64,000 bases of DNA from Halobacterium sp. R2-5. GTDB lineage: Archaea > Halobacteriota > Halobacteria > Halobacteriales > Halobacteriaceae. The notes beneath the pieces are model-generated. The model was given only the letters and a program-made list of their open reading frames with translations, had not been told where the DNA came from and ran no database searches. The stretch spans positions 1-64,000 of the forward strand of contig NZ_JAANTH010000003.1 in the NCBI RefSeq assembly GCF_011734195.1, in the 5' to 3' direction. Numbering within the stretch: the stretch's first letter is position 1; every line of letters begins with the position of its first letter. The position numbers were made by a program, and so were the translations under genes. Positions 3,827-52,485 of this stretch are shown here, in pieces.

Positions 3827-4918
3827 GTGTCGACCAGAAAGCCACCTCTCCACGAGACGCATTTGCAGTCCGGTGCCGACTTCACCGACTTCGGCGGCTG
3901 GGACATGCCGGTCTCGTTCGACTCGATTCGAACCGAGCACGCGGCAGTCCGCGACTCGGCTGGCATCTTCGATGTTAGCCACATGGGCGAAGTCACGGTC
4001 GGCGGACCGGACGCCACCGAACTGACGAACCGGCTCACGACCAACGACGTGACCGAGCTCGACCCGGGCGACGCCCAGTACGCCTGTATCCTCTCCGAAG
4101 ACGGGACGATCATCGACGACACCGTCGTCTACTTCCAACCCGACGGCGAGGAGTACCTCTTCGTTCCCAACGCCGGGAACGACGAGGCGATGGCCGACCG
4201 CTGGACCGACCACGCGGCGGCACACGACCTCGAGGCGACCGTCACGAACCGCACCGGCGAACTCGGGATGTTCGCTGTCCAGGGCCCGGACGCGGTCGAA
4301 GCCGTCCAGACGGCCGCGACCGACCCCCTCGAGGACGTGTCCCGGTTTAGCGCGCGCGACACGACGATCAACGGCGCCGACTGTCTCGCCGCCCGAACCG
4401 GTTACACCGGCGAGGACGGCTTCGAGTTGATTTTCGACACCGACGACTCCAAAGCTGTCTGGGACGCGTTCGACGACGTGCAGGCCTGTGGGCTCGGTGC
4501 GCGTGACACGCTCAGGCTGGAGGCCGGGCTGTTACTCTCCGGGCAGGACTTCCACGTCGAGGACGAACCACGGACACCCTACGAGACGCGGCTGAGCTTC
4601 GTGGTCGACGATTCGAAGTCGTTCTTCGTCGGCCAGGCGGCGCTTCAGGATGCCGCCGACCCGGACGAGCTACTCGTCGGCCTGGAACTGGACGAACGCG
4701 CCGTCCCCCGTCACGGGTATCCGATTCTGCACGACGGCGAACAGGTCGGCCACGTGACCAGCGGGACGATGAGCCCGACGCTCGAGGTTCCGATCGCCCT
4801 CGGCTACGTGGACGCCGCGTACGCCGACGAAGGGACCTCGCTGGCCGTCGAGGTACGCGACCGGTCGGCGGCAGCGACGGTCGTCAGCCACCGGTTCCTC
4901 CAGGAGCACCGCGAATAA
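3827..4918 (+). CDS. gcvT: Glycine cleavage system T protein (aminomethyltransferase)
   Basis: Transfers the methylene group from the aminomethyl-lipoyl H protein to tetrahydrofolate and releases ammonia. The 363-residue product matches the family length and opens with the typical FTDFGGWDMPVSF and HAAVRDSAGIFDVSHMGE. The region around ARTGYTGEDGFEL and GLGARDTLRLEAG is the folate-binding core. The C-terminal barrel (PRHGYPI, GHVTSGTMSPTL) is complete. A GTG start is chosen because a TATA box lies 27 nt upstream. It is the first gene of a tight run gcvT-gcvH-gcvPA-gcvPB, with gcvH starting 27 nt downstream. Confidence 0.95.
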   Translation: MSTRKPPLHETHLQSGADFTDFGGWDMPVSFDSIRTEHAAVRDSAGIFDVSHMGEVTVGGPDATELTNRLTTNDVTELDPGDAQYACILSEDGTIIDDTVVYFQPDGEEYLFVPNAGNDEAMADRWTDHAAAHDLEATVTNRTGELGMFAVQGPDAVEAVQTAATDPLEDVSRFSARDTTINGADCLAARTGYTGEDGFELIFDTDDSKAVWDAFDDVQACGLGARDTLRLEAGLLLSGQDFHVEDEPRTPYETRLSFVVDDSKSFFVGQAALQDAADPDELLVGLELDERAVPRHGYPILHDGEQVGHVTSGTMSPTLEVPIALGYVDAAYADEGTSLAVEVRDRSAAATVVSHRFLQEHRE

Positions 4919-4945
4919 ACGACCAGCGACTCACAACACCAACCA

Positions 4946-5329
4946 ATGGCATTTGACGTACCTGACGGACTGTACTACACTGAATCGCACGAGTGGATCG
5001 ACCCGGACGGCGACACAGCGAGAATCGGCATCACCGACTTCGCACAGGACGAACTCGGTGACATCGTCTTCGTGGAACTGCCAGCGACCGACGCCGAACT
5101 CGACGAAGGCGACGAGCTCGCAGTCATCGAGAGTATCAAGGCCGTGTCCGACGTCTACACTCCAGTTGCTGGGGCCGTCGTGGCCGGTAACGAGGCGGTC
5201 GGGGACGAGCCCGAACTCGTCAACGACGACCCGTACGGCGACGGCTGGCTCGTCGAACTGGAGCTCGACGAGGACTTCGACACGGACTCGCTCCTGTCGG
5301 CCGCCGAGTACCGCGAACAAATCGAGTAG
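4946..5329 (+). CDS. gcvH: Glycine cleavage system H protein, lipoyl carrier
   Basis: Small swinging-arm protein of 127 residues, normal for the family. K65 in the motif [14 protein letters not shown] is the lysine that receives lipoate. The C-terminal half ([15 protein letters not shown]) is the typical H-protein end. It accepts the aminomethyl group from the P protein and passes it to the T protein; its lipoate is reoxidised by the lipoamide dehydrogenase encoded at 8279. The lipoyl synthase gene at 11622 probably serves it. Co-transcribed with gcvT and the P-protein genes. Confidence 0.95.
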
Positions 5330-5347
5330 TTGCCCGGACGACCAACA

Positions 5348-6709
5348 ATGTCACAGCAAACCCAGAACACGAGAAGCGAGCGTCAGTCCGGAGGCAGCCC
5401 GTACGCACCGCACACGGCAGCTGACGTCGAAGCGATGCTCGACGTCATCGGCGCCGAATCCGTCGACGACCTGTTCGACGTTCCGCCATCAGTTCGGTTC
5501 GACGGCTCGTTCGGGATCGAGGCGTCGTCGGAGCAGGCGGTGGTCCGTGACGTCTCGGACACGCTTGCGCAGAACGAACAGCTCACCGAGTTTCTCGGCC
5601 GGGGACGGTACAATCACTACGTTCCCTCTGTCGTCGACGACCTCTCGTCACGATCGGAGTTCCTCACGTCGTACACACAGTACCAGCCCGAGGTCGCGCA
5701 GGGGTTCCTGCAGGCCTTGTTCGAGTACCAGTCGATGCTCGCCGAACTGACTGGCCTCGAGGTGGCAAACTGTTCGATGTACGACGCGGCGACGGCGCTG
5801 GGTGAGGCAGCGCTGCTCGCCGACCGCGTCCGGGGGACGAGCGGTTCGGAGGTGCTGGTCTCGGACCTGGTTCGTGAGGAGCGGCTGTCGGTTCTCGAGA
5901 ACTACCTCACCGGGAACGACATGACGGTTGCGACGTACCCAACCGAGGACGGAATCACCGATCAGGAAGCCCTCGCCGACCACGTCACCGACGAGACGGT
6001 GATGGTGTACGCCGAGAATCCCACCGCTGTCGGCACCATCCAGGAGGACCTCGCGGCAGTCGGCGACGTCGCCGACGAGCACGACGCGCTGTTCTGTCTG
6101 GGCACCGACCCGGTCGCGCTCGCGCTGCTCGAAGAGCCGGCCGCCGTCGGCGCCGACGTCGTCGTCGGGGACGCGAGCGTCCTGGGACTGTCGTCGGCCT
6201 ACGGACTGGGACTTGGACTGTTCGCGACCCGAGAGGACTATCTCCGACAGGTCCCGGGCCGACTCGTCGGCGCCAGTGAGGACACAGACGACAGGCGCGC
6301 GTACACGTTGACCCTGCAGACCCGGGAACAGCACATCCGGAAGGAGCGCGCGACGTCGAACATCTGCACGAACCAGGCGTGGGTCGCGTTGCGGACCGCG
6401 ATTCACGTCGCCTGGCTCGGCACGACCGGGCTGGTCGACCTGGCCGAGGAGTGCGTCCAACTCCCGCGCGAACTGGCCGCCGAGGTCGACGACATTGAGG
6501 GTGTCACTGCACCGGTCCACGACCGCCACCACTTCCGCGAGTTCCTGATGGAGACGCACCGGGACGCCGAGCAGGTCGCCGCCGGCCTCGAGGCTGAAGG
6601 ATTCGCGGTACACGCCGTCGACGAACACCACGTCCAGGTCTGTGTCACTGACACAAACCGCCACGAGTGCAGCGAGTTCGTGGACGCCGTTGAGGAGGTG
6701 GTCGCCTGA
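5348..6709 (+). CDS. gcvPA: Glycine dehydrogenase (decarboxylating) subunit 1
   Basis: N-terminal half of the split P protein, the two-gene form usual in archaea and Gram-positive bacteria. The product is 453 residues. Motifs include [27 protein letters not shown] and [11 protein letters not shown], all typical of subunit 1, which shapes the active site but does not carry the PLP lysine. The ATG at 5348 is preferred to the TTG directly after the gcvH stop because MSQQTQNT begins a natural N-terminus and sits 18 nt after gcvH. The TGA overlaps the ATG of gcvPB (TGATG), so the two subunits are translationally coupled. Confidence 0.95.
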
Positions 6710-8133
6710 TGCAGCGCTACGAACAGGCCGTCTGGAGCGAGACGGACGGCCCCCGGTACGAGCCCCTGCTCGCGGAGAAGAACGAACGGACAGTCGACGT
6801 CCAAGAGCGGTCGTCGCTGCCCGATGACGTGACGCGAGACTCCGTGACGCTCCCGGAACTATCGGAGCCCGAGATCGCGCGCCACTACACGCGGCTCTCT
6901 CAGATGAACTACGGCGTCGAGAACGGGCCGTTCCCGCTCGGCTCGTGTACGATGAAGTACAACCCCAAGTTCACTGAGGAAGTCGCTGCACTTCCCGACG
7001 CGGCCGTGCATCCGGACCGGTCGGCCGAGAGCACGCAGGGCACGCTCGCGGTGTACGCGAAACTGCAGGATTATCTGGGCCGGATCGGCGGGATGGATGC
7101 GGTCACGCTGCAGCCACCGGCGGGTGCTGCCGGCGAGTTCACGGGTATCCTCGTCGCCAGGGCGTACCACGAGCACAACGGCGAGGGGGACCGTAGCGAA
7201 GTGATTGTTCCCGCGAGCGCCCACGGGACGAACTTCGCGAGCGCGGTGATGGCGGGCTACGACGTGGTCGAACTCCCGCCGGGCGACGACGGACGAGTTG
7301 ATCTCGACAGCCTGGAGGCAGCCGTCAGTGAGGACACGGCGGCGCTGATGCTCACGAACCCGAACACGCTCGGGCTCTTCGAGCGCGACATCGAGGAGAT
7401 CGCGGACGTCGTCCACGACGCCGGCGGCCTGCTGTACTACGACGGCGCGAACCTCAACGCGCTCCTGGGGCAGGCCCGGCCTGGCGATATGGGCTTCGAC
7501 ATCATGCACTTCAACCTCCACAAGACGTTCGCGACGCCCCACGGCGGCGGCGGCCCGGGCGCGGGACCGATCGGCGTCACCGAGGAGTTAGCCGACTTCC
7601 TCCCCGCACCGCAGGTGGGGGACGACGGCGACGAGTACGAGCTGTACGAGCCGGAACACTCCATCGGGAAGGTCCACGGCGCGATGGGGAACTGGCTCGT
7701 CCTGTTGAAAGCCTACGCCTACATCGAACGGCTCGGCGACGACGGGCTAGCGGACACGAGCTCGAAGGCGGTGCTGAACGCGAACTACCTCGCCGAACAG
7801 CTCGACCTAGACGTCCCGTTCGGTCCGTTTCACCACGAGTTCGTCGCCAGCGCAGGCGAGCAGGACGCCGCCGACTTTGCCAAGCGGATGCTGGATTACG
7901 GCGTCCATCCGCCCACGACGAAGTGGCCGGAGATCGTCTCCGAGGCACTCATGACCGAGCCGACAGAGCTGGAGAGCAAGGACACCCTCGACCAGCTCGC
8001 GGACGCGTTCAACGCGGTGGCCGACGAGGACGAGCAGTCACTATCGGACGCGCCATCGTCGACGGCGGCCGGTCGCATCGACCAGACGAGTGCAGCCCGG
8101 AATCCGCGGCTGTCCTGGCACGACCTCGAGTGA
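6709..8133 (+). CDS. gcvPB: Glycine dehydrogenase (decarboxylating) subunit 2
   Basis: PLP-carrying half of the P protein, 474 residues. K272 in NLHKTFATPHGGGGPG is the Schiff-base lysine, followed by the glycine-rich loop found in every P protein. Upstream motifs GSCTMKYNPK and HGTNFASAV are also diagnostic. With GcvPA it decarboxylates glycine and loads the aminomethyl group onto lipoyl-GcvH. The start overlaps the gcvPA stop by one base. The C-terminal tail after residue ~430 is rich in Ser, Asp and Ala and looks like a haloarchaeal extension. Confidence 0.95.
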   Translation: MQRYEQAVWSETDGPRYEPLLAEKNERTVDVQERSSLPDDVTRDSVTLPELSEPEIARHYTRLSQMNYGVENGPFPLGSCTMKYNPKFTEEVAALPDAAVHPDRSAESTQGTLAVYAKLQDYLGRIGGMDAVTLQPPAGAAGEFTGILVARAYHEHNGEGDRSEVIVPASAHGTNFASAVMAGYDVVELPPGDDGRVDLDSLEAAVSEDTAALMLTNPNTLGLFERDIEEIADVVHDAGGLLYYDGANLNALLGQARPGDMGFDIMHFNLHKTFATPHGGGGPGAGPIGVTEELADFLPAPQVGDDGDEYELYEPEHSIGKVHGAMGNWLVLLKAYAYIERLGDDGLADTSSKAVLNANYLAEQLDLDVPFGPFHHEFVASAGEQDAADFAKRMLDYGVHPPTTKWPEIVSEALMTEPTELESKDTLDQLADAFNAVADEDEQSLSDAPSSTAAGRIDQTSAARNPRLSWHDLE

Positions 8134-8278
8134 CGCGGCAGGCTGGGCGACCGGTAACGGTCGTGCCAGTGCTCGACGCAGCCCTCCGGTAGCACTGCGG
8201 CTATTCCGGGTAGCGAAGGCGTGACGGGGAAGAATTAACACGCGGCGGCCGAGAGTGTTTCGGGAGGGTAGCACACTC

Positions 8279-9697
8279 ATGCTAGAGACAGATGTACTCG
8301 TCATCGGTGGCGGTCCAGCGGGCTACGTCGCGGCCATCCGCGCGGGACAGCTCGACAAAACGGTCACGCTCGTCGACCGGAGCGGCGTCGGCGGAACGTG
8401 TCTGAATCACGGCTGCATTCCCTCGAAGGCGCTCATCGACGCGGCCGACGACGTTCACGCGGTTCGGAACGGAGAGGACCGCGGCATCGAGGCGGACGTC
8501 GCGGTAGACTTCGAAGGCCTCGTGGGCTGGAAGGACCGCGTCGTGCGCCGACTCACGAAGGGAGTCGAGAAGCTCTGCAAGGCAAACGGCGTGACGCTTC
8601 GCGAGGGGACAGCCCGGTTAGTCGGAGACCACCGCGCGGAAATCAGGACAGGCGGGAACGGTGACGCGGAAACGGTCGCGTTCGATCACGCGATCGTTGC
8701 CACCGGCAGCAGCCCGATCGAACTCCCGGGGTTCTCCTTCGACGACGACCCGATTCTGGACGCGAAGGCGGCACTGGACCTCGATACACTCCCCGACGAA
8801 CTGGTTGTCGTCGGCGCCGGCTACATCGGGATGGAGCTGTCGACGATGTTCGCCAAGCTCGGGACGGACGTGACCGTCGTCGAGATGCTGGACGCGCCGC
8901 TGCCCCGGTACGCGGACGACTTGACCCAGCCGGTGGCGAAGCGCGCGGAGAAGCTCGGGCTGTCGTTCCGGTTCGGTCGCGTGGCGTCTAACTGGGAGCG
9001 GGTCGACGACGGACAGATACGGATCACGACCGAACCAGCCGAAGACGGAACGGACGAGGATGCGGTCGAATCGTTCACGGCCGACAAAGTACTGGTCGCA
9101 GTCGGCCGTGAACCGGTCTCTGATACAGCCGGAATCGACGCTCTCGCCGTCGAGTGCGACGAGAACGGGTTCGTCGAGACGGACGAATTCGGGCGGACGA
9201 ACGTCGACCACGTCTTCGCCGTCGGTGACGTGGCGGGCGAACCAATGCTCGCCCACGAAGGCACCGCTGCGGGCGTCGTCGCGGCCGAGGCGATTGCAGG
9301 CGCGGAGCCCGACCCGGTCGGCACCGTTCCGAGCGTCGTGTTCACCGACCCCGAGATCGGGGCTGTCGGGCTGACCGAAGCCGAGGCACGCGAACGGGGA
9401 TACGAACCGACGACAGGTGAGTTCCCGTTCCGCGCGAGCGGCCGCGCGCTGGCGGCCGACGAACGAGCCGGGTCTGTGAAGCTCGTCGCGGATGCCGGTT
9501 CCGGGACCATTCTCGGCGGGCAAATCGTCGGTCCGGAGGCGTCCGAGTTGACCGCCGAAATCGGCCTGGCGGTCGAACAAGCGCTGACGCTCTCGGACGT
9601 CGCGACGACCGTCCACGCGCATCCCACCCTCTCTGAAGCGATTATGGAAGCGGCCGAATCCGCGCTCGGCCACCCAATCCACACCTTCGACCGATGA
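8279..9697 (+). CDS. lpdA: Dihydrolipoamide dehydrogenase (glycine cleavage L protein, E3)
   Basis: Flavoprotein of 472 residues that reoxidises dihydrolipoyl groups with NAD+. Visible are the FAD dinucleotide-binding GGGPAGY (residues 10-16), the redox pair C41 and C46 in GGTCLNHGCIPSK, the NAD-binding GAGYIGME near 180, the FAD-binding AVGDVAGEPMLAHE, and the catalytic dyad H448-E453 in HAHPTLSE near the C-terminus. The ATG at 8279 follows a GGGAGGG stretch by about 10 nt, so this gene, unlike most here, seems to use a Shine-Dalgarno site. About 145 nt separate it from gcvPB. It could also serve the acetoin-type dehydrogenase at 46-51 kb, which has no E3 of its own in the window. Confidence 0.95.
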   Translation: MLETDVLVIGGGPAGYVAAIRAGQLDKTVTLVDRSGVGGTCLNHGCIPSKALIDAADDVHAVRNGEDRGIEADVAVDFEGLVGWKDRVVRRLTKGVEKLCKANGVTLREGTARLVGDHRAEIRTGGNGDAETVAFDHAIVATGSSPIELPGFSFDDDPILDAKAALDLDTLPDELVVVGAGYIGMELSTMFAKLGTDVTVVEMLDAPLPRYADDLTQPVAKRAEKLGLSFRFGRVASNWERVDDGQIRITTEPAEDGTDEDAVESFTADKVLVAVGREPVSDTAGIDALAVECDENGFVETDEFGRTNVDHVFAVGDVAGEPMLAHEGTAAGVVAAEAIAGAEPDPVGTVPSVVFTDPEIGAVGLTEAEARERGYEPTTGEFPFRASGRALAADERAGSVKLVADAGSGTILGGQIVGPEASELTAEIGLAVEQALTLSDVATTVHAHPTLSEAIMEAAESALGHPIHTFDR

Positions 9698-9859
9698 CTG
9701 CCGCCACCTAGCCACGCTAGCGACGACGACATCGTGTGCCGGGGCTGCAATGCGACAACACGTCTGTCTGGCGGGCTACGGGACTACCACCCGTCGAAGT
9801 TACACGCTCTCGTCCAGAACGGTAGAATTGAGGTCGGGAGTCCGCCGGGAGTGGTTCCG

Positions 9860-10237
9860 TTACCGGCTGGCGACGGCCTCGATCTCGACGCCGACGCCTT
9901 TCGGGAGTTCGTCGACGCCGACGGCGCTACGGGCCGGCGGGGCCTCGTCGAAGTAGCCACTGTACACTGTATTCATCTCCTCGAAGTCGTCGATATCGTC
10001 GAGGAAGACGTTGACTTTGAGGACGTCGCTCGTCGTCAGCCCGGCTTCGGCGAGCACCGCCTCCACGTTGTCGAGCGCTTGTTCGGTCTGTTCGGAAATC
10101 GGCGCATCGTCGAGTAGTTCACCGTCGGGTGTCGCAGGGAGCTGTCCGGCGGTGAAGACGAGGTCGTCGGTTGCAGTCGCCTGGCTGTACGCACCGACGG
10201 CTGCTGGCGCTTCGGCTGTCTCTATGGTTCGCACCAT
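9860..10237 (-). CDS. ridA: RidA family 2-iminobutanoate/2-iminopropanoate deaminase
   Basis: The product has 125 residues from the ATG at 10237, the size of YjgF/YER057c/UK114 proteins. The hallmark AAVGAYSQA (residues ~11-19), FTAGQLP and the C-terminal region with the conserved Arg (APPARSAVGVDELPKGVGVEIEAVA) are present. RidA hydrolyses the reactive enamine/imine made by PLP serine/threonine dehydratases, protecting PLP enzymes such as serine hydroxymethyltransferase. Its place beside glyA and in the same neighbourhood as a threonine/serine ammonia-lyase fits that role well. A TTTTAAG box 28 nt before the ATG suggests a leaderless message, divergent from glyA. Confidence 0.92.
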   Translation of the reverse strand: MVRTIETAEAPAAVGAYSQATATDDLVFTAGQLPATPDGELLDDAPISEQTEQALDNVEAVLAEAGLTTSDVLKVNVFLDDIDDFEEMNTVYSGYFDEAPPARSAVGVDELPKGVGVEIEAVASR

Positions 10238-10261
10238 ATCCCAATCACGCTGCCACACTGA

Positions 10262-10322
10262 CTTAAAACGTGGTGCAGTCCGACCGTTCTCCCGGTGTGG
10301 CTTGCTTTCCCAAGGATTTTTA
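10262..10322. promoter_or_regulatory. Divergent TATA-like boxes between ridA and glyA
   Basis: The minus-strand TTTTAAG (10262-10268) is 28 nt before the ridA ATG, and the plus-strand TTTTTA (10317-10322) is about 28 nt before the glyA ATG at 10348. Both spacings predict leaderless mRNAs. Confidence 0.45.
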
Positions 10323-10347
10323 CGCTAACAGAAGGAAGCGGTGACGT

Positions 10348-11598
10348 ATGTTACCGGAGGGTAATCTATCGGCAACGGACCCAGAGGTTCACGCTGCGAT
10401 CGACGGAGAAGAACAACGGCAGGAACAGAATCTGGAGATGATCGCGTCGGAGAACCACGTCTCGGAGGCCGTCCTCGAGGCGCAGGGCTCGGTACTGACC
10501 AACAAGTACGCCGAGGGGTACCCGGGAGCGCGGTACTACGGTGGCTGCGAACACGTCGATACCGTCGAACAACTGGCAATCGATCGGGCGAAAGAGCTCT
10601 TCGACGCCGAACACGCGAACGTCCAGCCGCACAGCGGAACGCAGGCCAACATGGCGGTCTACTTCGCGATGCTGGACCCCGGCGACAAGATCCTCTCACT
10701 CGACCTCACGCACGGCGGACACCTCTCGCACGGACACCACGTCAACTTCTCCGGACAGTACTACGAAGTCGAACAGTACGGCGTCGACCCGGAAACCGGG
10801 TACATCGACTACGACGAGCTCACCTCCCACGCCGAGGAGTTCAACCCTGATCTCGTCGTCAGCGGGTCGTCGGCGTACCCCCGAGAGTTCGACTACGAGC
10901 GCATCGGCGAGGTCGCAGACGCTGTCGACGCGTACCACATGGCGGATATCGCTCACGTCACGGGACTCATCGCTGGTGGTGTCCACACGAATCCGGTTGG
11001 GGACGCCGACTTCGTGACGGGGAGCACGCACAAGACGATTCGTGCTGGACGCGGGGGGATGATTCTCACAACGGAGGAGCACGCCGAGGCGATCGACAAG
11101 GCGATCTTCCCCGGTGCGCAGGGTGGCCCGTTGATGCACAACATCGCCGGGAAGGCCGCTGGGTTCGGGGAAGCACTCACCGACGAGTTCGACGAGTACG
11201 CCGAACAGGTCGTCGCGAACGCGAAGGCCCTCGGCGAGGTGTTCACCGACCGAGGGATGTCGCTCGTCAGCGATGGCACCGACAAGCACCTCCTTCTCGT
11301 CGACCTGCGCGAGTCGCACCCGGACATCACCGGGAAGGACGCCGAGGAGCGACTCGAGAGCGTCGGAATTACGGTCAACAAGAACACTGTTCCGGGCGAG
11401 TCGCGGTCGCCGTTCGTTACTAGCGGCATCCGCGTCGGGACGCCTGCGCTGACCACGCGCGGGTTCACCGAGTCGGAGATGGAGACGGTCGGTCAGCACA
11501 TCGCCGACCTCCTCGATAACCCGGACGACGACGAGCTGGCGGCGGACGTCGCGGCAGACGTGGACAAACTCTGTGCCGAGTACCCGATCTATGAGTGA
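10348..11598 (+). CDS. glyA: Serine hydroxymethyltransferase
   Basis: PLP enzyme interconverting serine and glycine with a folate one-carbon unit. The 416-residue product has the expected opening ([15 protein letters not shown]), the substrate-binding [13 protein letters not shown], and K229 in [14 protein letters not shown] as the PLP lysine. The ending ([16 protein letters not shown] type) is typical. In this neighbourhood it would use methylene-folate from the glycine cleavage system to turn a second glycine into serine, which the ammonia-lyase at 2491 can deaminate to pyruvate. It overlaps the first possible start of the lipA frame, so the two genes are probably co-transcribed. Confidence 0.95.
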
Positions 11599-11621
11599 CC
11601 GTCAGCGGACCGACGAACGCC

Positions 11622-12548
11622 ATGAGTCAGGCACGTAAGCCGGACTGGCTGAAGATGCGGCCGCCGTCCGGCGAGCGCTTCACGGACATCGAGCAGTCAC
11701 TCCGGGAGCGGGATCTGCATACGGTCTGTGAGGAGGCAAACTGTCCGAACATGGGCGAGTGCTGGAGCGGTCGCGACGGCCCGGGTACCGCGACGTTCAT
11801 GCTGATGGGCGACCGGTGCTCGCGGGGCTGTAACTTCTGCGACGTCCAGACCGGTGGGATGGAGCCCTTAGATCCCGACGAGCCCGCGAACGTCGCAGAC
11901 GCCGTCGCCGACATTGGACTCGATTACGTCGTCCTGACCTCGGTCGACCGCGACGACCTCGGCGACCAGGGCGCGAGCCACTTCGCGCAGACGATTCGGG
12001 AGATCAAGGACCGCGACCCGTCGATTCGCGTCGAGTGCTTGATTCCGGACTTCCAAGGGGACCCCAACCTTGTCAGGGAGATCATCGACGCGGGGCCGGA
12101 CGTCATCGCACACAACATCGAAACCGTCGAGCGCCGGCAGTTCCCGGTGCGGGACCGCCGCGCGAGCTACGAACAGTCCCTGAGCGTACTCGACCAGGTC
12201 GACCGTGAGTCCGACATCTACACGAAGACGAGCGTCATGCTGGGCGTCGGCGAGTACGACCACGAAGTCTACCAGACGTTATCGGATCTTCGTGAAGTCG
12301 GCGTAGATATCGTGACACTGGGGCAGTACCTCCAGCCGTCGCGCTCACATCTGGACGTCGCGGACTACGTCCATCCACAGAAGTTCGAGACGTGGCGCCG
12401 CGTCGCCGAGGAGGAGTTCGACTTCCTCTACTGCGCGTCCGGCCCGATGGTCCGGTCGTCGTACAAGGCCGGCGAACTGTTCGTCGACGCCGTACTCGAC
12501 GGGGAAACTGTCGAACAGGCACGCGAGCTTGCACGGGCCGAGTCGTGA
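11622..12548 (+). CDS. lipA: Lipoyl synthase, radical SAM
   Basis: Inserts two sulfurs into protein-bound octanoyl groups. From the ATG at 11622 the product is 308 residues. The auxiliary cluster motif C36-x4-C41-x5-C47 (CEEANCPNMGEC) and the radical-SAM motif C66-x3-C70-x2-C73 (CSRGCNFC) are both intact. The C-terminal YCASGPMVRSSYKAGE is a family hallmark. A GTG 27 nt further upstream, overlapping the glyA stop, is a possible alternative start. Its position beside glyA and the glycine cleavage genes indicates that it matures the GcvH lipoyl group, and it may also serve the lipoylated E2 at 46790. Confidence 0.95.
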   Translation: MSQARKPDWLKMRPPSGERFTDIEQSLRERDLHTVCEEANCPNMGECWSGRDGPGTATFMLMGDRCSRGCNFCDVQTGGMEPLDPDEPANVADAVADIGLDYVVLTSVDRDDLGDQGASHFAQTIREIKDRDPSIRVECLIPDFQGDPNLVREIIDAGPDVIAHNIETVERRQFPVRDRRASYEQSLSVLDQVDRESDIYTKTSVMLGVGEYDHEVYQTLSDLREVGVDIVTLGQYLQPSRSHLDVADYVHPQKFETWRRVAEEEFDFLYCASGPMVRSSYKAGELFVDAVLDGETVEQARELARAES

Positions 12549-46789: not shown

Positions 46790-48562
46790 ATGGGATATAT
46801 CGTCCGGATGCCAAAGCTCGGCCTGGAGATGGACGAAGGGACGCTGCTGGACTGGTACGTCAGCGAGGACGGCACCATCGAAGCCGAGGAGACTGTCGCG
46901 GAGATCGAATCCGAGAAAACGACCGCAGAAGTGGATGCCAGGGAAGGCGGCGTGCTTCGGCGAGTGTTTCTCGACGAGGGCGAGACGGTCGACCCCGGAA
47001 CGCCAATAGGGATTATCGCTGGCGCCGACGAAGATATCTCGGCGTTGATCGACGAAGCCGAAACCGAGCTCGAGGACGGGGCAGCAACAGCAAGCGAGGA
47101 GGACGAGACTTCCGCTGAGCCTGCGGCTCAAACGTCGGCGGAGAGCGAGACGACAAAAAACGGTAGTTCCGGAACCAGAGATGCAAGTCCGCGTGCACGA
47201 AAGCGTGCGGAGGAACTTGACGTAGATCTCGGTGCCGTCTCCGGAAGCGGCCCTAATGGCGCGATTACGGCAGAGGATGTCGAGGCGGCTGCCGAAAGCA
47301 GTACGGATGACGTGAAAGCCAGTCCCCGTGCGAAGAAACGAGCCGACGAGTTGGATGTCGACCTTACTGCGGTCTCCGGGAGCGGACCCGGCGGTGCCAT
47401 CACTGCCGAGGATGTCGAGGCTGCCGCAGACTCGACCGGGAGCCCGGGAGGTGGTGCGGCACGGACACTCTCGGAGGAGCGCACATTCGGTGGAATGCGC
47501 CAGTCGATCGCCGATCGTCTCGGACAGAGTTACCGGGAGGCCGTCCACGTTACTGAACACCGCGAAATCGATGTAGAGGAACTGCTTGCGGCCGTGGACG
47601 CCGCCGAGGACGCACTCGATGTGGATGTCTCCATGTCGGACGTGTTGCTGGTCGCACTCTCAGCGGCCCTCGAGGATCACCCCGAGTTCAACGCGACGTT
47701 CGAGGACGGCACGCATCGCCTCTACGAGGAACACAACATCTGCGTGGCCGTCGACGTCGACGAAGGACTCGTCACACCGGTCGTTCCGGCCGTCGACTCG
47801 AAGTCGCTGGGGGAGGTCGCGGAGGCTCGCCGCGAGATTACGCAACGCACGCTCGACGGCGAGTACACGATGAGTGACCTCCGCGGCGGGACGTTCACGG
47901 TCACGAATCTCGGTGTGCTCGGCGTGGAATCGTTCAACCCGATCATCAATCCGCCCCAGATCGCCATTCTCGGTGTGAACGCGGTCGACGAACGCGTCGT
48001 ACCCCAGGATGATGGCACGCCTGAAACGCGTCGCGTGCTACCGCTCGATCTTTCGTTCGACCACCGTGTAGTCGACGGCGCCGACGCTGCGCGCTTCCTG
48101 CAGTCACTGGTCGCCCACCTGGAAGATCCGTGGCCGCTGCTCCCAGATGAAGTCAGTCCAGTGGCCGCTGAAGATTACCCCGAGCGTCACGCGACCGCCA
48201 CCTCACAAGACGGAATGTCGGGTACGGTACGAACTACCGGCGTCGAACAGCAGTACAGCGCCGACGAGGGCACGCCGTCGCCGGTTGACCTGTTCCTGTC
48301 GTCGCTGTCGGCGTGTCTGTCGCTGTCGATCCGCTATCAGGCCGACGTCCGCGACCTCGACGTTGCTCGCATCGACGTGACCGCGGATGCGGAGCCGGAC
48401 TCGGGATCGGTAGAGGCCATCGAGGTCGCCGTCAATATTGACGCGCCCGACGTGGACGAGGAGACGCTCGACCGCATCGTCGAGAACGGCGAACGGAGTT
48501 GCCACGTGGCGGAACTCCTCGACGCGGATCTCCCGATGTCGCTGTCCTGGGAGCGCGCCTAG
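46790..48562 (+). CDS. acoC: Dihydrolipoamide acyltransferase (E2) with tandem subunit-binding domains and fused OsmC domain
   Basis: The product is 590 residues. Residues 1-80 are a lipoyl domain with K43 (ESEKTTAE) as attachment site. Two peripheral subunit-binding domains follow at 132-168 and 177-213 (ASPRARKRAEELDVD and ASPRAKKRADELDVD), almost duplicates. Residues ~225-452 are the catalytic acyltransferase, with H425 in the FDHRVVDGADAARFL motif. The last ~115 residues are an OsmC-type thiol peroxidase domain, with C509 in SSLSACLSLSI and C571 in GERSCHVAELL as the paired reactive cysteines. E2 passes acyl groups from the E1 encoded convergently at 49.5-51.6 kb to CoA. The E2-OsmC fusion is unusual, and the paired Cys suggest the domain is active. 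Confidence 0.9.
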   Translation: MGYIVRMPKLGLEMDEGTLLDWYVSEDGTIEAEETVAEIESEKTTAEVDAREGGVLRRVFLDEGETVDPGTPIGIIAGADEDISALIDEAETELEDGAATASEEDETSAEPAAQTSAESETTKNGSSGTRDASPRARKRAEELDVDLGAVSGSGPNGAITAEDVEAAAESSTDDVKASPRAKKRADELDVDLTAVSGSGPGGAITAEDVEAAADSTGSPGGGAARTLSEERTFGGMRQSIADRLGQSYREAVHVTEHREIDVEELLAAVDAAEDALDVDVSMSDVLLVALSAALEDHPEFNATFEDGTHRLYEEHNICVAVDVDEGLVTPVVPAVDSKSLGEVAEARREITQRTLDGEYTMSDLRGGTFTVTNLGVLGVESFNPIINPPQIAILGVNAVDERVVPQDDGTPETRRVLPLDLSFDHRVVDGADAARFLQSLVAHLEDPWPLLPDEVSPVAAEDYPERHATATSQDGMSGTVRTTGVEQQYSADEGTPSPVDLFLSSLSACLSLSIRYQADVRDLDVARIDVTADAEPDSGSVEAIEVAVNIDAPDVDEETLDRIVENGERSCHVAELLDADLPMSLSWERA

Positions 48563-49527
48563 TGCGTCGGCGCCTGCTCGAAGACCGCCTCGAAATCCAC
48601 GAGTTGCGGACCACTGGCGACCGGTCGAATCGACACGTCCTCGTTGCTCACCTCAAGTTCCCGCTCGCCATCCACACTGACGACGGCATCGTCGATGTCA
48701 AACGTCCGTGGTTCGTCAAAATCGAGCCGCGACCACGACGCGACGCCCACATGCTTGACGTCGCCGGGGGTCGTAATCGCCGGGACCGTCCGATCCGTAT
48801 CCGGGTCGAGTTCTAGTCCCACCCCGCCAGGGTCCGTCGGCGCAAGCTGCGTGCATGCGCCTGCGATCCCAGACAGCCCGATTTCGCCGCGGCTAGCCCG
48901 GGAAACGACGCCACCGAGGAACTCATCGGGATCGAGGATTGCGCGCGTCCCGATGAACGAGCGATCGACGATGCTGACAGTGGCCAGCCCGCGGACAGAG
49001 CGGCCGTCGGAGACGTCCGCCGCGACCATCGCGTGACGGTCGGTGACTGCGTCGGCGTCAACCACGCCTGTCGCGACGAATGCGGCCGCGGCGCCCGCGA
49101 CTGTGCCGTCGATCATCGTCGGAACGACGTTGTTTGTGCCCGTCGAGACGGCCAGCACCGGTACATCACCGATCTCGATCGCCAGGTCCCGGGTGGTGCC
49201 ATCGCCGCCAAAGACGACCACGGCGTCAGCCAGCTCACGGAAGGCGCTACCAGCGCGGCGCGTGTCCGCGCCAGACCCCTCGACGTCAACGTCGAGCACG
49301 GTGACGTTCGACCGGTCGGTTTCGTCGGCCGTCTGCTGGCCGATGCGCCCCGAGTCCGGTGCGAGAACGACGTCTACGGGATCGTCGACGATATCGAGTC
49401 CGGCGAGCACGCTCTCGGCCGCACGGCGTTTCCCGTAGTTGTCGCTGACGCTCGCGCTCCCGATTAGCCGGCGGACGTCCCTGCCGGCCGCCGGGTTAAC
49501 AACGACGCCGACGGTCGGCGTCGCCAC
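48559..49527 (-). CDS. acoX: AcoX-like protein, NAD-kinase/diacylglycerol-kinase fold
   Basis: The 322-residue product has VVVNPAAGRD at the start, GGDGT at 107-111 and STGTNNVVPTM, the nucleotide-binding signature of the ATP-NAD kinase superfamily. The length and C-terminal domain match AcoX, which accompanies acetoin dehydrogenase genes in bacteria and has no proven enzymatic role. It starts 3 nt after the E1-beta stop, so it is third in the operon E1-alpha, E1-beta, acoX. Its stop shares CTAG with the stop of the convergent E2 gene. Its presence is the main reason to call this cluster acetoin-type. Confidence 0.82.
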   Translation of the reverse strand: MATPTVGVVVNPAAGRDVRRLIGSASVSDNYGKRRAAESVLAGLDIVDDPVDVVLAPDSGRIGQQTADETDRSNVTVLDVDVEGSGADTRRAGSAFRELADAVVVFGGDGTTRDLAIEIGDVPVLAVSTGTNNVVPTMIDGTVAGAAAAFVATGVVDADAVTDRHAMVAADVSDGRSVRGLATVSIVDRSFIGTRAILDPDEFLGGVVSRASRGEIGLSGIAGACTQLAPTDPGGVGLELDPDTDRTVPAITTPGDVKHVGVASWSRLDFDEPRTFDIDDAVVSVDGERELEVSNEDVSIRPVASGPQLVDFEAVFEQAPTH

Positions 49528-49530
49528 CGA

Positions 49531-50538
49531 TCAGACCACCTGATTGATGGCGTCGCGGACGTCCGCCCCGTCCGGCACAATTTCGTCTTCGAGCGGCGTG
49601 CTGAACGGCACGTGTGTGTCGGGCACCCCGACGCGCTGGAGGGGAGCATCGAGGCTAAAGAACTCGTCTTCGACCATGCGGGTGACGACCTCCGCGTGGA
49701 CGCCGTACGAGAGCGGGCTCTCGTCGGCGACGACCATCCGCCCGGTCTTCTGAATGCTGTCCGCCAGCGTCTCCGTGTCCAGCGGATACAGCGACCGCAG
49801 GTCGATCACCTCGACGCTTGTATCGCCCGCAAGCTCGTCAGCGACGGTGAGTGACTCGCCGACGAGACGCTGTGTCGCAACAACAGTCACGTCACTGCCC
49901 TCGCGTTCGACCGACGCCTCACCGATCGGGGCCGTATAGTTCGGGTCTGTTGGGACATCGCCGTCCTGCTCGTACATCATCTTATTCTCGAAGAAGAACA
50001 CAGGGTCGTCAGAACGGATGGCGGACTTCAACAGCCCCTTGGCCGCTTCCGGCGTCCCGGGCGTGACAGCCTTCAGGCCGGGGAAATGCGCGAACCAAGT
50101 GTGTGGCGTGCCGGAGTGCTGGCTTGCCGCGCCCATGCCGCCGCCTTCTGTCGTCCGAACGGTGATCGGCATCTCGATCTTCCCGCCGAACATATACCGC
50201 ATCTTCGCCATCTGATTCATCACTTGTTCGCCTGAGACGCCGAGGAAATCGGAGAACATCACTTCGACAACGGGGCGGGTTCCGCTGGCTGCGGCGCCGA
50301 CGCCAGCGCCAACGAATCCGGCCTCGCTAATCGGCGTATCACGGACGCGCTCGTCGCCGAACTGCTCGTGGAGCCCATCGGTAACCTCGAAGACGCCGCC
50401 GTAGTTACCGACATCCTCGCCCATGATGAAGACGTCCTCGTCGTGGTCCATCTCCTCACGGAGCGCGGCGCGGATCGCCTCGCGAACGGTCATCGACTCC
50501 GTACTCTCGCTTGATGCGGAATCGGGCTGTGTGCTCAT
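49531..50538 (-). CDS. acoB: 2-oxoacid/acetoin dehydrogenase E1 component, beta subunit
   Basis: The 335-residue product is a transketolase-like E1 beta subunit. It has MTVREAIRAALREEM and FIMGEDVGNYGGVF, ISEAGFVGAGVGAAASG and the characteristic HSGTPHTWFAHFPGLKAV, followed by the C-terminal transketolase domain (VIDLRSLYPLDTETL, VADESPLSYG). With E1 alpha it decarboxylates or cleaves the substrate with thiamine diphosphate. Its start overlaps the E1-alpha stop by 4 bases (ATGA type). Confidence 0.92.
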   Translation of the reverse strand: MSTQPDSASSESTESMTVREAIRAALREEMDHDEDVFIMGEDVGNYGGVFEVTDGLHEQFGDERVRDTPISEAGFVGAGVGAAASGTRPVVEVMFSDFLGVSGEQVMNQMAKMRYMFGGKIEMPITVRTTEGGGMGAASQHSGTPHTWFAHFPGLKAVTPGTPEAAKGLLKSAIRSDDPVFFFENKMMYEQDGDVPTDPNYTAPIGEASVEREGSDVTVVATQRLVGESLTVADELAGDTSVEVIDLRSLYPLDTETLADSIQKTGRMVVADESPLSYGVHAEVVTRMVEDEFFSLDAPLQRVGVPDTHVPFSTPLEDEIVPDGADVRDAINQVV

Positions 50539-51575
50539 TGCTGGTCACCTCCGCGGCCGTCGGTACGAAGTGCACTCGCGAATCGCTCGATCTCTGGGAC
50601 CGGCTGGGAGAACATATCGTCGTACGCCTCCTCGGCTGTCGGCAGATCGGCGTCGCGGGCGAACTCAACGGCTTCCTCGATTTCGGCTTCAACTTCCGCG
50701 CGAAGCTCCTCCAGCTCATCTTCGGAGAGTTCACCGCGCTCGATCAGCCGATCGGCGAACGTCTCAATCGAGTCCCGTTGCCGCCAGCGCTCGACGTCGT
50801 CTTCGTCGCGGTACGGCTCAGGGTCGCCTTCGAAGTGGCCGCGGTAGCGGTACGTCTCCGCCTCGATGAACGTCGGCCCGTTGCCGTTCGCTGCGCGCTC
50901 GCGCGCCTCTTCGACGGCTTCGTTGACCGCGGTGACATCCATGCCGTCGACGGTGAAGCCGGGGATGTCGTACGACTCCGCCGTCTCGCTGAGGTTTTCG
51001 ACGTTGTGTTGCTGTTCGACCGGTGTTCCCTCGCCGAAGTGGTTGTTCTCCACGAGGAACACGGCCGGGAGATCCCAGGTTGCTGCGAGGTTGATGGCTT
51101 CGTGAACTTGGCCCTGTGCGACCGCTCCGTCGCCGAGGAACGCGAGCGCGACGCGCTCGTCGTCGTGGTACTGGCAGGTCAACGCAGCGCCCGTTGCGAG
51201 TGGCGGGCCGGCGCCCACGATCCCGTTCGCGCCGAGCATGTTCGCGTCGACGTCCGCGATATGCATCGAGCCACCCTTCCCGTTGCAGTATCCCTCGCGT
51301 TTCCCGAGGAGTTCGGCCATCATCTTTCGCGGATCGAGGCCTTTGGCGATGCAGTGGCCGTGTCCACGGTGCGTGCTCGTGATGAAGTCCTCGTCTTCGA
51401 GGGCTGCACACGCGCCTACGGCGACGGCTTCCTCGCCGATGTAGAGGTGTACGAACCCGGGAATGTCGCCGTCGGCGAACAGGTCGCCGGCTGTACTGTC
51501 GAACTCGCGGATCGTTAGCATTCGACGGAGCGCCTCCTCTCTCCCCGCCGGATCATTCATTGATATTGATGTCAT
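50535..51575 (-). CDS. acoA: 2-oxoacid/acetoin dehydrogenase E1 component, alpha subunit
   Basis: The 346-residue product carries the thiamine-diphosphate motif, GDGAVAQGQVHEAINLA to VENN, and the substrate loop STHRGHGHCIAKGLDP with KGGSMHIAD. The last is shared by acetoin and branched-chain/pyruvate E1 alpha subunits, so the substrate rests on context. The start at 51575 lies 30 nt after a TTTATT box; a second ATG at 51560 is possible. It is the first gene of the minus-strand operon. No E3 gene is near, so the lipoamide dehydrogenase at 8279 or one elsewhere must serve it. Confidence 0.92.
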   Translation of the reverse strand: MTSISMNDPAGREEALRRMLTIREFDSTAGDLFADGDIPGFVHLYIGEEAVAVGACAALEDEDFITSTHRGHGHCIAKGLDPRKMMAELLGKREGYCNGKGGSMHIADVDANMLGANGIVGAGPPLATGAALTCQYHDDERVALAFLGDGAVAQGQVHEAINLAATWDLPAVFLVENNHFGEGTPVEQQHNVENLSETAESYDIPGFTVDGMDVTAVNEAVEEARERAANGNGPTFIEAETYRYRGHFEGDPEPYRDEDDVERWRQRDSIETFADRLIERGELSEDELEELRAEVEAEIEEAVEFARDADLPTAEEAYDDMFSQPVPEIERFASALRTDGRGGDQQ

Positions 51576-51736: not shown

Positions 51737-52218
51737 TCAAGAACCAGACGTGAGCCAGTGCTGGAGAAGTCGCCACCCGTTGTTCCGGGCTGCATTGTAG
51801 TCGGGGTGCAGTTCCTTCCCGCACTTCAGACACTCGAACTCGTCACCATCACGGCTGTCCTCGTGCGTGAACCCGCAGTCGCCGTGACTGCACCGCTGGC
51901 CCGTATAAGCAGGTGCAACCGTTTCCACGTCAATACCGTATTCTTCGGCTCTGTATTCGACATGACGTTGGAGTTCGCGGAACACCCACTGTTGGAACTT
52001 TGAGAGGTTCGAGATACGCTCGCGGATGTGCGTCAGGTTCTCGAACGCAATTGCCGTGCAGTCGTTCTCCACAGCTTCACGGACGACGGCCTTCGACACG
52101 CGGTGGAGATAGTCCGCGCTCCACCGTGCGAACCGTGAGCCGATGCTTTTGATGGTGAGGTGGGCGAAACGAGTGCCTGTCTGTTGGAGGTTGCCGCGCC
52201 GCCGTTCGTACTCATAAG
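51737..52218 (-). pseudogene. 5'-truncated TnpB remnant
   Basis: TnpB similarity begins at YEYERRRGNLQQTGTRFAHL, about 230 residues into a normal protein, and runs through AFENLTHIRERI (RuvC-II Glu kept), YRAEEYGIDVETVAP, the zinc ribbon (CSHGDCG...CLKCG) and DYNAARN. The N-terminal domain and RuvC-I Asp are absent. It is related to, but distinct from, the intact copies. Its upstream edge abuts a truncated membrane gene, and downstream, at about 51650-51690, a degenerate CACGC...GCGTG hairpin may be the old right end. Confidence 0.75.
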
Positions 52219-52485
52219 CTCTTGAGGGAGGACGAGCTGGTTTACCGAGACAACGATAGTGATGAGCGTGACGTTCCAGGTTACCACGGCCTGGAACATG
52301 TATGTGATGCGTGTGGAACCGATCGCCGTGATGATGCCAGCCGAGGACATGACTGCGACGCCCATCGCGAAGGCGAGTGTTACGAGACCTGCGACGAGGA
52401 GGCGGTTGCCGCCGAACACGAACCACTCTCGCGGTCCGGTGCGGATATCGCGGAGACCTTGCTCGAGTCTGGTGACCGGAGCCAA
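52219..52485 (-). pseudogene. Membrane protein gene truncated by the TnpB remnant
   Basis: The ATG at 52485 opens MAPVTRLEQGLRDIRTGPRE, with two hydrophobic segments (LLVAGLVTLAFAMGVAVMSS and AVVTWNVTLITIVVSVNQLVL). The natural protein seems to stop at VLPQEL, where TnpB sequence begins in another frame. The rest of the gene, presumably a larger soluble domain, is missing. It is 22 nt downstream of the formate/nitrite channel gene on the same strand and may have been its operon partner. Confidence 0.6.

Follow-up and report, generated by a model that had tools for sequence, protein, structure and literature searches.

The E2-OsmC gene and its surroundings

The window, i.e. the whole stretch of 64,000 nucleotides analysed here, contains an uninterrupted open reading frame on the forward strand (46790-48562, ATG to TAG) encoding a protein of 590 amino acids. 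According to the Pfam search, in which all matches of the protein exceeded the gathering cut-offs, a lipoyl domain, two subunit-binding domains (PSBD), the acyltransferase core of an E2 and an OsmC domain follow each other in this single frame, confirming the E2-OsmC fusion that an earlier note had read from the sequence. The lipoyl lysine (K43), the catalytic histidine (H425) and both cysteines of the OsmC domain (C509 and C571) are located where that note had placed them. The gene and its domains are as follows:

46790-48562, + strand: E2-OsmC fusion gene, 590 amino acids (open frame; Pfam; 41 fused relatives)
46802-47017, + strand: lipoyl domain, residues 5-76, lipoyl lysine K43 (Pfam Biotin_lipoyl, E 1.1e-13)
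47183-47293, + strand: first PSBD, approximate, residues 132-168 (Pfam E3_binding; predicted helices 134-143 and 161-170)
47312-47419, + strand: second PSBD, residues 175-210 (best stretch of Pfam E3_binding; predicted helices 179-188 and 206-215)
47477-48139, + strand: E2 acyltransferase core, residues 230-450, catalytic H425 (Pfam 2-oxoacid_dh, E 1.1e-65)
48185-48559, + strand: OsmC domain, YhfA type by its diagnostic residues, residues about 466-590 (Pfam OsmC; AlphaFold2; Foldseek; residue counts)

K43, the lysine of an ESEK motif, is invariant across the 20 rows of alignment A5, and H425 lies in the motif DHRVVDG and is invariant in 26 of 26 full-length relatives. The E3_binding profile was matched twice (E 2.6e-28). 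Possessing a lipoyl domain with its lysine, a PSBD and a core with the DHR-x-x-DG histidine, the protein belongs to the E2 family. The OsmC profile (PF02566) matched residues 493-584 with E 1.3e-16 and 61.3 bits against a gathering cut-off of 27.5. Within the OsmC domain C509 occupies the Cp site and C571 the Cr site, the latter in the motif E568-R569-x-C571-H572, and the only additional cysteine of the protein is C318 in the E2 core. The full-length AlphaFold2 model (pTM 0.43) presents the domains as flexibly linked, without fixed or reliable packing between them.

Adjoining the fusion gene are genes for further components of a 2-oxoacid dehydrogenase-like complex, and an E3 is encoded elsewhere in the window:

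48559-49527, - strand: acoX-like gene, ATP-NAD kinase fold (Pfam NAD_kinase, E 5.1e-9; stop codon overlap in the sequence)
49531-50538, - strand: acoB-like E1 beta (Pfam Transket_pyr and Transketolase_C; NCBIfam PRK09212 above cut-off)
50535-51575, - strand: acoA-like E1 alpha (Pfam E1_dh, E 8.1e-95)
8255-9697, + strand: dihydrolipoamide dehydrogenase (E3) in a glycine-cleavage cluster (Pfam; 58% identity to the other E3)

The acoX-like gene is convergent with the E2-OsmC gene and the two stop codons overlap. The E1 alpha protein scored 381.6 bits against NCBIfam TIGR03182, slightly below the cut-off of 393.85. The company of acoA-, acoB- and acoX-like genes marks the set as one of the acetoin-dehydrogenase type. 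Acetoin is only a putative substrate of the complex encoded in the window, since no substrate has been identified for oadhAB3 from Haloferax volcanii, which is the nearest counterpart to have been studied (PMC8305020).

The E3 gene lies 37 kb from the fusion gene, and its product is a possible candidate partner of the E2-OsmC protein; it shares 58% identity with the E3 from the other 2-oxoacid dehydrogenase operon of the genome. The glycine-cleavage cluster around it (3827-12548) comprises gcvT, gcvPA, gcvPB, the E3 gene, glyA and a LipA-like gene. Two more E2s with lipoyl domain, PSBD and core are encoded in the genome (loci L049 and L050), each in an operon with its own E3, and the genome also has two other OsmC genes. 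Upstream of acoA, positions 51737-52426 code for the C-terminal piece of an RNA-guided nuclease of the TnpB type, with a Cas12f1-like TNB domain; this looks like the remainder of a truncated transposon.

Spread, selection and natural variants

The protein from the window served as query against 293 sampled Halobacteriales genomes; the loci were extracted and their domains were assigned by purpose-built HMMs. This survey detected the E2-OsmC fusion in at least 27 of the 293 genomes, which belong to several families and include, with the E2 core in the same frame, Natronococcus, Natronorubrum, Halobiforma haloterrestris, Halogranum, Halegenticoccus, Halorubrum and Natribaculum. In 22 of the 27 the order acoA-acoB-acoX is convergent with the fusion gene. 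A glyoxalase-family gene (VOC, Glyoxalase_4) is kept between E2 and acoX in L042 (10207-10929) and in many fused loci.

The survey also settles whether a frameshift or an assembly error might have joined two genes: the fusion was recovered as 41 distinct proteins, and 26 full-length relatives can be aligned end to end, all 26 matching both the Pfam OsmC and 2-oxoacid_dh profiles. Both C509 and C571 are invariant in the 41 fused proteins; the loss of a cysteine in orthologues, which the earlier note had named as a refutation, was thus not observed. The residues near the second cysteine are kept almost as strictly (E568 in 40/41, R569 in 39/41, H572 in 37/41). In eight close pairs the pN/pS of the OsmC domain was 0.11-0.27, compared with 0.09-0.20 for the E2 core; judging from these substitution patterns the fused OsmC domain is under purifying selection. 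Furthermore, the pairwise distances of the OsmC domain and the E2 core were correlated (r = 0.895; none of 2000 permutations as high), a correlation that speaks for joint inheritance rather than for contact, since host relatedness contributes to it.

Many related loci lack an OsmC domain, as might be expected if the fusion were accidental and functionally meaningless. However, with both cysteines invariant in 41 distinct fused proteins, a low pN/pS and OsmC distances that follow those of the core, such an accident is exceedingly improbable; an annotation artefact is already refuted, and neutrality would require a relaxed selection that was not seen.

In many acoABX loci the E2 is unfused and no OsmC gene is present nearby, and the OsmC domain is therefore dispensable for the complex. 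Fused copies occupy basal branches of the E2 tree (L135, L100 and L097) as well as positions near its tips, and so an old fusion followed by losses is likely, with a single origin left unproven by the quick tree: the E2 and OsmC trees contain many weak forks and do not separate a single gain with losses from a few gains. Beyond the order, a phylum-level search with an OsmC profile yielded, among the matches listed, only frames of 178-553 amino acids. In 72,556 plasmid records the sole place covering 80% of the query stops at residue 478, short of the OsmC domain. A description of an E2-OsmC fusion was not found in the literature searched, in which subscription journals are thinly covered; the architecture may already be listed in automatic domain databases.

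Several genomes carry altered forms of the arrangement. For the contig scan a profile from a closer subset of OsmC sequences was used, a single-protein query having given no match. In locus L223 and in Haloterrigena salina (L151/L164) a stand-alone OsmC gene starts about 225 bp from acoA in divergent orientation. Its product shares 76-78% identity with the nearest fused OsmC domain and, to judge by this sequence likeness, is derived from the fusion, while the E2 of the aco locus in both genomes has no catalytic histidine. That the split OsmC still adjoins acoA in two genomes indicates that the linkage to the aco locus outlasts the un-fusing. Two other candidates were given little or no weight: the stand-alone OsmC adjoining acoA in L113/L114 is a different OsmC of the L051 type, found in one genus only and with one copy seemingly truncated, and was taken as weak evidence, and the OsmC about 940 bp from acoA in Natrinema gelatinilyticum (L165) was left out as a canonical OsmC matched with only E 8e-5.

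In Halobiforma nitratireducens (L146:5566-6408) and Natrinema gelatinilyticum (L150:5392-6417) the E2 core has been deleted and a lipoyl-like domain without the lysine is joined directly to an intact OsmC domain. The pN/pS of these OsmC copies is still 0.26-0.33. The best acoA counterpart in the former genome reaches 34% and is not a close one; the latter has a close acoA elsewhere. The OsmC domain is thus worth keeping on its own, which weakens models that require a lipoyl group in cis. In genome G083 (L102) the lipoyl domain has been lost and acoAB do not adjoin the gene.

Further variants were observed around these loci. A genome of the window's genus has a fusion-type OsmC as a gene of its own (L046:9469-9971), which a frameshift seems to have split. 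The E2s of the acoABX loci L042, L043, L118, L120, L124, L151, L206, L213, L215, L218, L221, L223 and L225 have retained the lipoyl domain and two PSBDs with a core devoid of the DHR-x-x-DG histidine. In Halegenticoccus soli (L157) a further degenerate E2-like gene, in which a recognisable lipoyl lysine motif is missing as well, adjoins an E2-OsmC fusion. These proteins may have a role comparable to that of the mitochondrial E3-binding protein. Most of the loci L122-L137 combine acoA/acoB-like genes (about 40-48% identity) with an E2 core of 240-390 amino acids that has neither lipoyl domain nor PSBD, and their lipoyl domain may be encoded by a separate gene.

The duplicated PSBD had been proposed to recruit additional E3 for the OsmC domain. 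This proposal did not hold, since the unfused acoX-type E2s possess two or three PSBDs and the fused E2s one or two (several with one). The duplication is a trait of this E2 group and no E3 supply line for the OsmC domain. Three tandem, nearly identical PSBDs are present in the unfused acoX-type E2s of L101, L104, L108, L109 and L111-L116.

Class and possible role of the OsmC domain

In the Ohr of X. fastidiosa the peroxidatic cysteine is activated by an arginine and a glutamate (R19 and E51). The corresponding sites of the fusion protein are M476 and V499 according to a HMMER alignment with V. cholerae Ohr and an alignment with E. coli OsmC and YhfA. Among the 41 fused proteins the R19 site is occupied by M, L, F, T, S or a gap and the E51 site by V (39/41) or P (2/41), so that not one of them has the activating pair of the Ohr/OsmC peroxidases. 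Two cysteines without that arginine and glutamate are the mark of the YhfA class, the properties of which are described as "to be investigated" (PMC8945050); YhfA structures have been available since 2003 without any known biochemical activity (PMC8945050, PMC5962072). In E. coli, yhfA adjoins crp.

The fused domain shows the YhfA residue pattern and is, by these diagnostic residues, of the YhfA type. Its AlphaFold2 model predicts a confident OsmC fold (pLDDT 91.3), and the first PDB match of the model in Foldseek was E. coli YhfA (1ml8; E 3.8e-10, TM 0.79/0.83). Overall sequence similarity does not decide the class, because E. coli OsmC obtains a slightly higher score with the sequence profile (33.1 bits) than YhfA does (25.7 bits); in a search of the OsmC profile against the PDB, Thermoplasma Ta0195 and Ohr ranked first and OsmC structures were also matched.

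Our main reading, to which we assign a probability of about one half, is that of a YhfA-type dithiol domain attached to a lipoylated E2 and taking part in lipoyl-linked dithiol chemistry. The protein would be the E2 of a haloarchaeal complex of the acetoin-dehydrogenase type, to which the OsmC domain was presumably added C-terminally early in this E2 group. In such complexes the lipoyl arm moves between E1, E2 and E3; it passes through disulfide, acyl-thioester and dithiol forms and is regenerated by E3 with NAD. As a dithiol/disulfide redox domain, OsmC would trade electrons with this arm, either in cis or in trans. A lipoyl donor in cis is plausible because lipoylated proteins and their E3 are known to re-reduce Ohr/OsmC enzymes (PMC5962072, PMC8945050). 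As reactions of the domain, slow peroxide reduction, the reduction of low-molecular-weight disulfides or persulfides, or the repair of a modified lipoyl group are possible.

The earlier note had proposed a built-in, E3-fed peroxidase. In such a scheme C509 would reduce an organic hydroperoxide, C571 would resolve the oxidised cysteine, the lipoyl arm would re-reduce the pair in cis and E3 with NADH would feed the chain. The structural premises of the note stood, namely the conserved fusion with intact K43, H425 and cysteine pair in a lipoyl-dependent locus, and the OsmC fold as well as the use of lipoylated proteins as reductant by Ohr and OsmC agree with it. However, the equivalents of Arg19 and Glu51 are missing in 41 of 41 proteins, whichever of E. 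coli OsmC, YhfA or V. cholerae Ohr is used for the alignment, and the OsmC-like protein FTN_1133 was devoid of thiol-peroxidase activity (PMC4069020). R569, two residues from the second cysteine, could in principle replace the missing arginine. Fast reduction of organic hydroperoxides without the arginine and the glutamate is, on these residues, unlikely, and we regard the complete peroxidase scheme as doubtful.

The OsmC domain might also provide the complex with a second exit for electrons or with a means of self-repair: its disulfide would re-oxidise the dihydrolipoyl arm in cis and hand the electrons on to some acceptor that is not NAD, so that E3 would be partly by-passed. We hold this version to be unlikely. 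If such a second exit existed, the YhfA-type OsmC proteins in general would be lipoyl-linked dithiol oxidoreductases.

OsmC proteins are obligate homodimers (PMC5962072), and the fused domain might serve to link E2 trimers or dock a partner, with the cysteine pair forming a structural disulfide or persisting as a remnant. The flexible linkage of the domains in the full-length model and the retention of OsmC on chains without the lipoyl lysine are consistent with such a structural or targeting role. It fails, however, to predict the near-universal retention of both active-site cysteines and of the ER-x-C-H motif, and we rate it as rather improbable. In yet another scenario the OsmC dithiol would capture or release an aldehyde or acyl adduct of the complex's own substrate or product without any electron transfer. 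Acetoin-type E1s release aldehydes, and the glyoxalase-family gene between E2 and acoX in many loci would fit such a task. Against it, we know of no OsmC protein that binds aldehydes. The haloarchaeal acetoin-type complexes, including oadhAB3, furthermore have no established substrate (PMC8305020), and we consider adduct handling very unlikely.

Comparison with known systems

While the peroxidase claim of the earlier note is weakened, the fusion opens an orphan OsmC class to testing as a lipoyl-linked system. The conserved fusion and the split form beside acoA constitute Rosetta-stone evidence and provide the YhfA class with a testable partner, the lipoyl arm. The fusion also bears on the haloarchaeal acetoin-type complexes, whose Haloferax volcanii counterpart is still without an identified substrate (PMC8305020).

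The component domains and the principle of a thiol redox protein fed by an E2 are already known. With the members of the YhfA subfamily (E. coli YhfA, 1ml8; Aquifex Aq_1549, 2egt) the fused domain shares the two cysteines and the missing arginine and glutamate of Ohr/OsmC; a -P-x-(D/E)- turn ahead of the first cysteine is common to the fused domain and YhfA, its best structural match. Unlike YhfA it is the C-terminal part of a lipoylated E2 and has its own ER-x-C-H motif. The Ohr/OsmC peroxidases (X. fastidiosa Ohr; E. coli OsmC, 1nye; Ta0195, 2onf) have the fold and the Cp and Cr cysteines in common with it, but each is a small dimeric protein of its own that encounters lipoyl domains in trans, and their activating arginine and glutamate are missing from all fused copies.

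In the mycobacterial AhpC-AhpD-DlaT-Lpd peroxidase chain, for which PMC4069020 cites Bryk 2002, a lipoylated E2 and an E3 likewise supply a thiol redox protein with electrons. That chain consists of separate proteins with unrelated folds and its peroxidase activity has been demonstrated, whereas the E2-OsmC protein is known from its sequence. In an alpha/beta-hydrolase-OsmC fusion (PDB 9wo1, 400 amino acids; OsmC profile match 4.7e-10) the OsmC domain also stands behind an enzyme and there is no glutamate at the -10 site, but the partner enzyme differs from an E2. The locus as a whole is most comparable to the bacterial AcoABC(X)(L) systems and to oadhAB3 of Haloferax volcanii, with which it shares the acoA-, acoB- and acoX-like genes and an E2 composed of lipoyl domain, PSBD and core. 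In contrast to the acetoin complexes, the haloarchaeal E2 gene is convergent to acoABX instead of being part of one operon, and its product carries one or two PSBDs and the OsmC tail.
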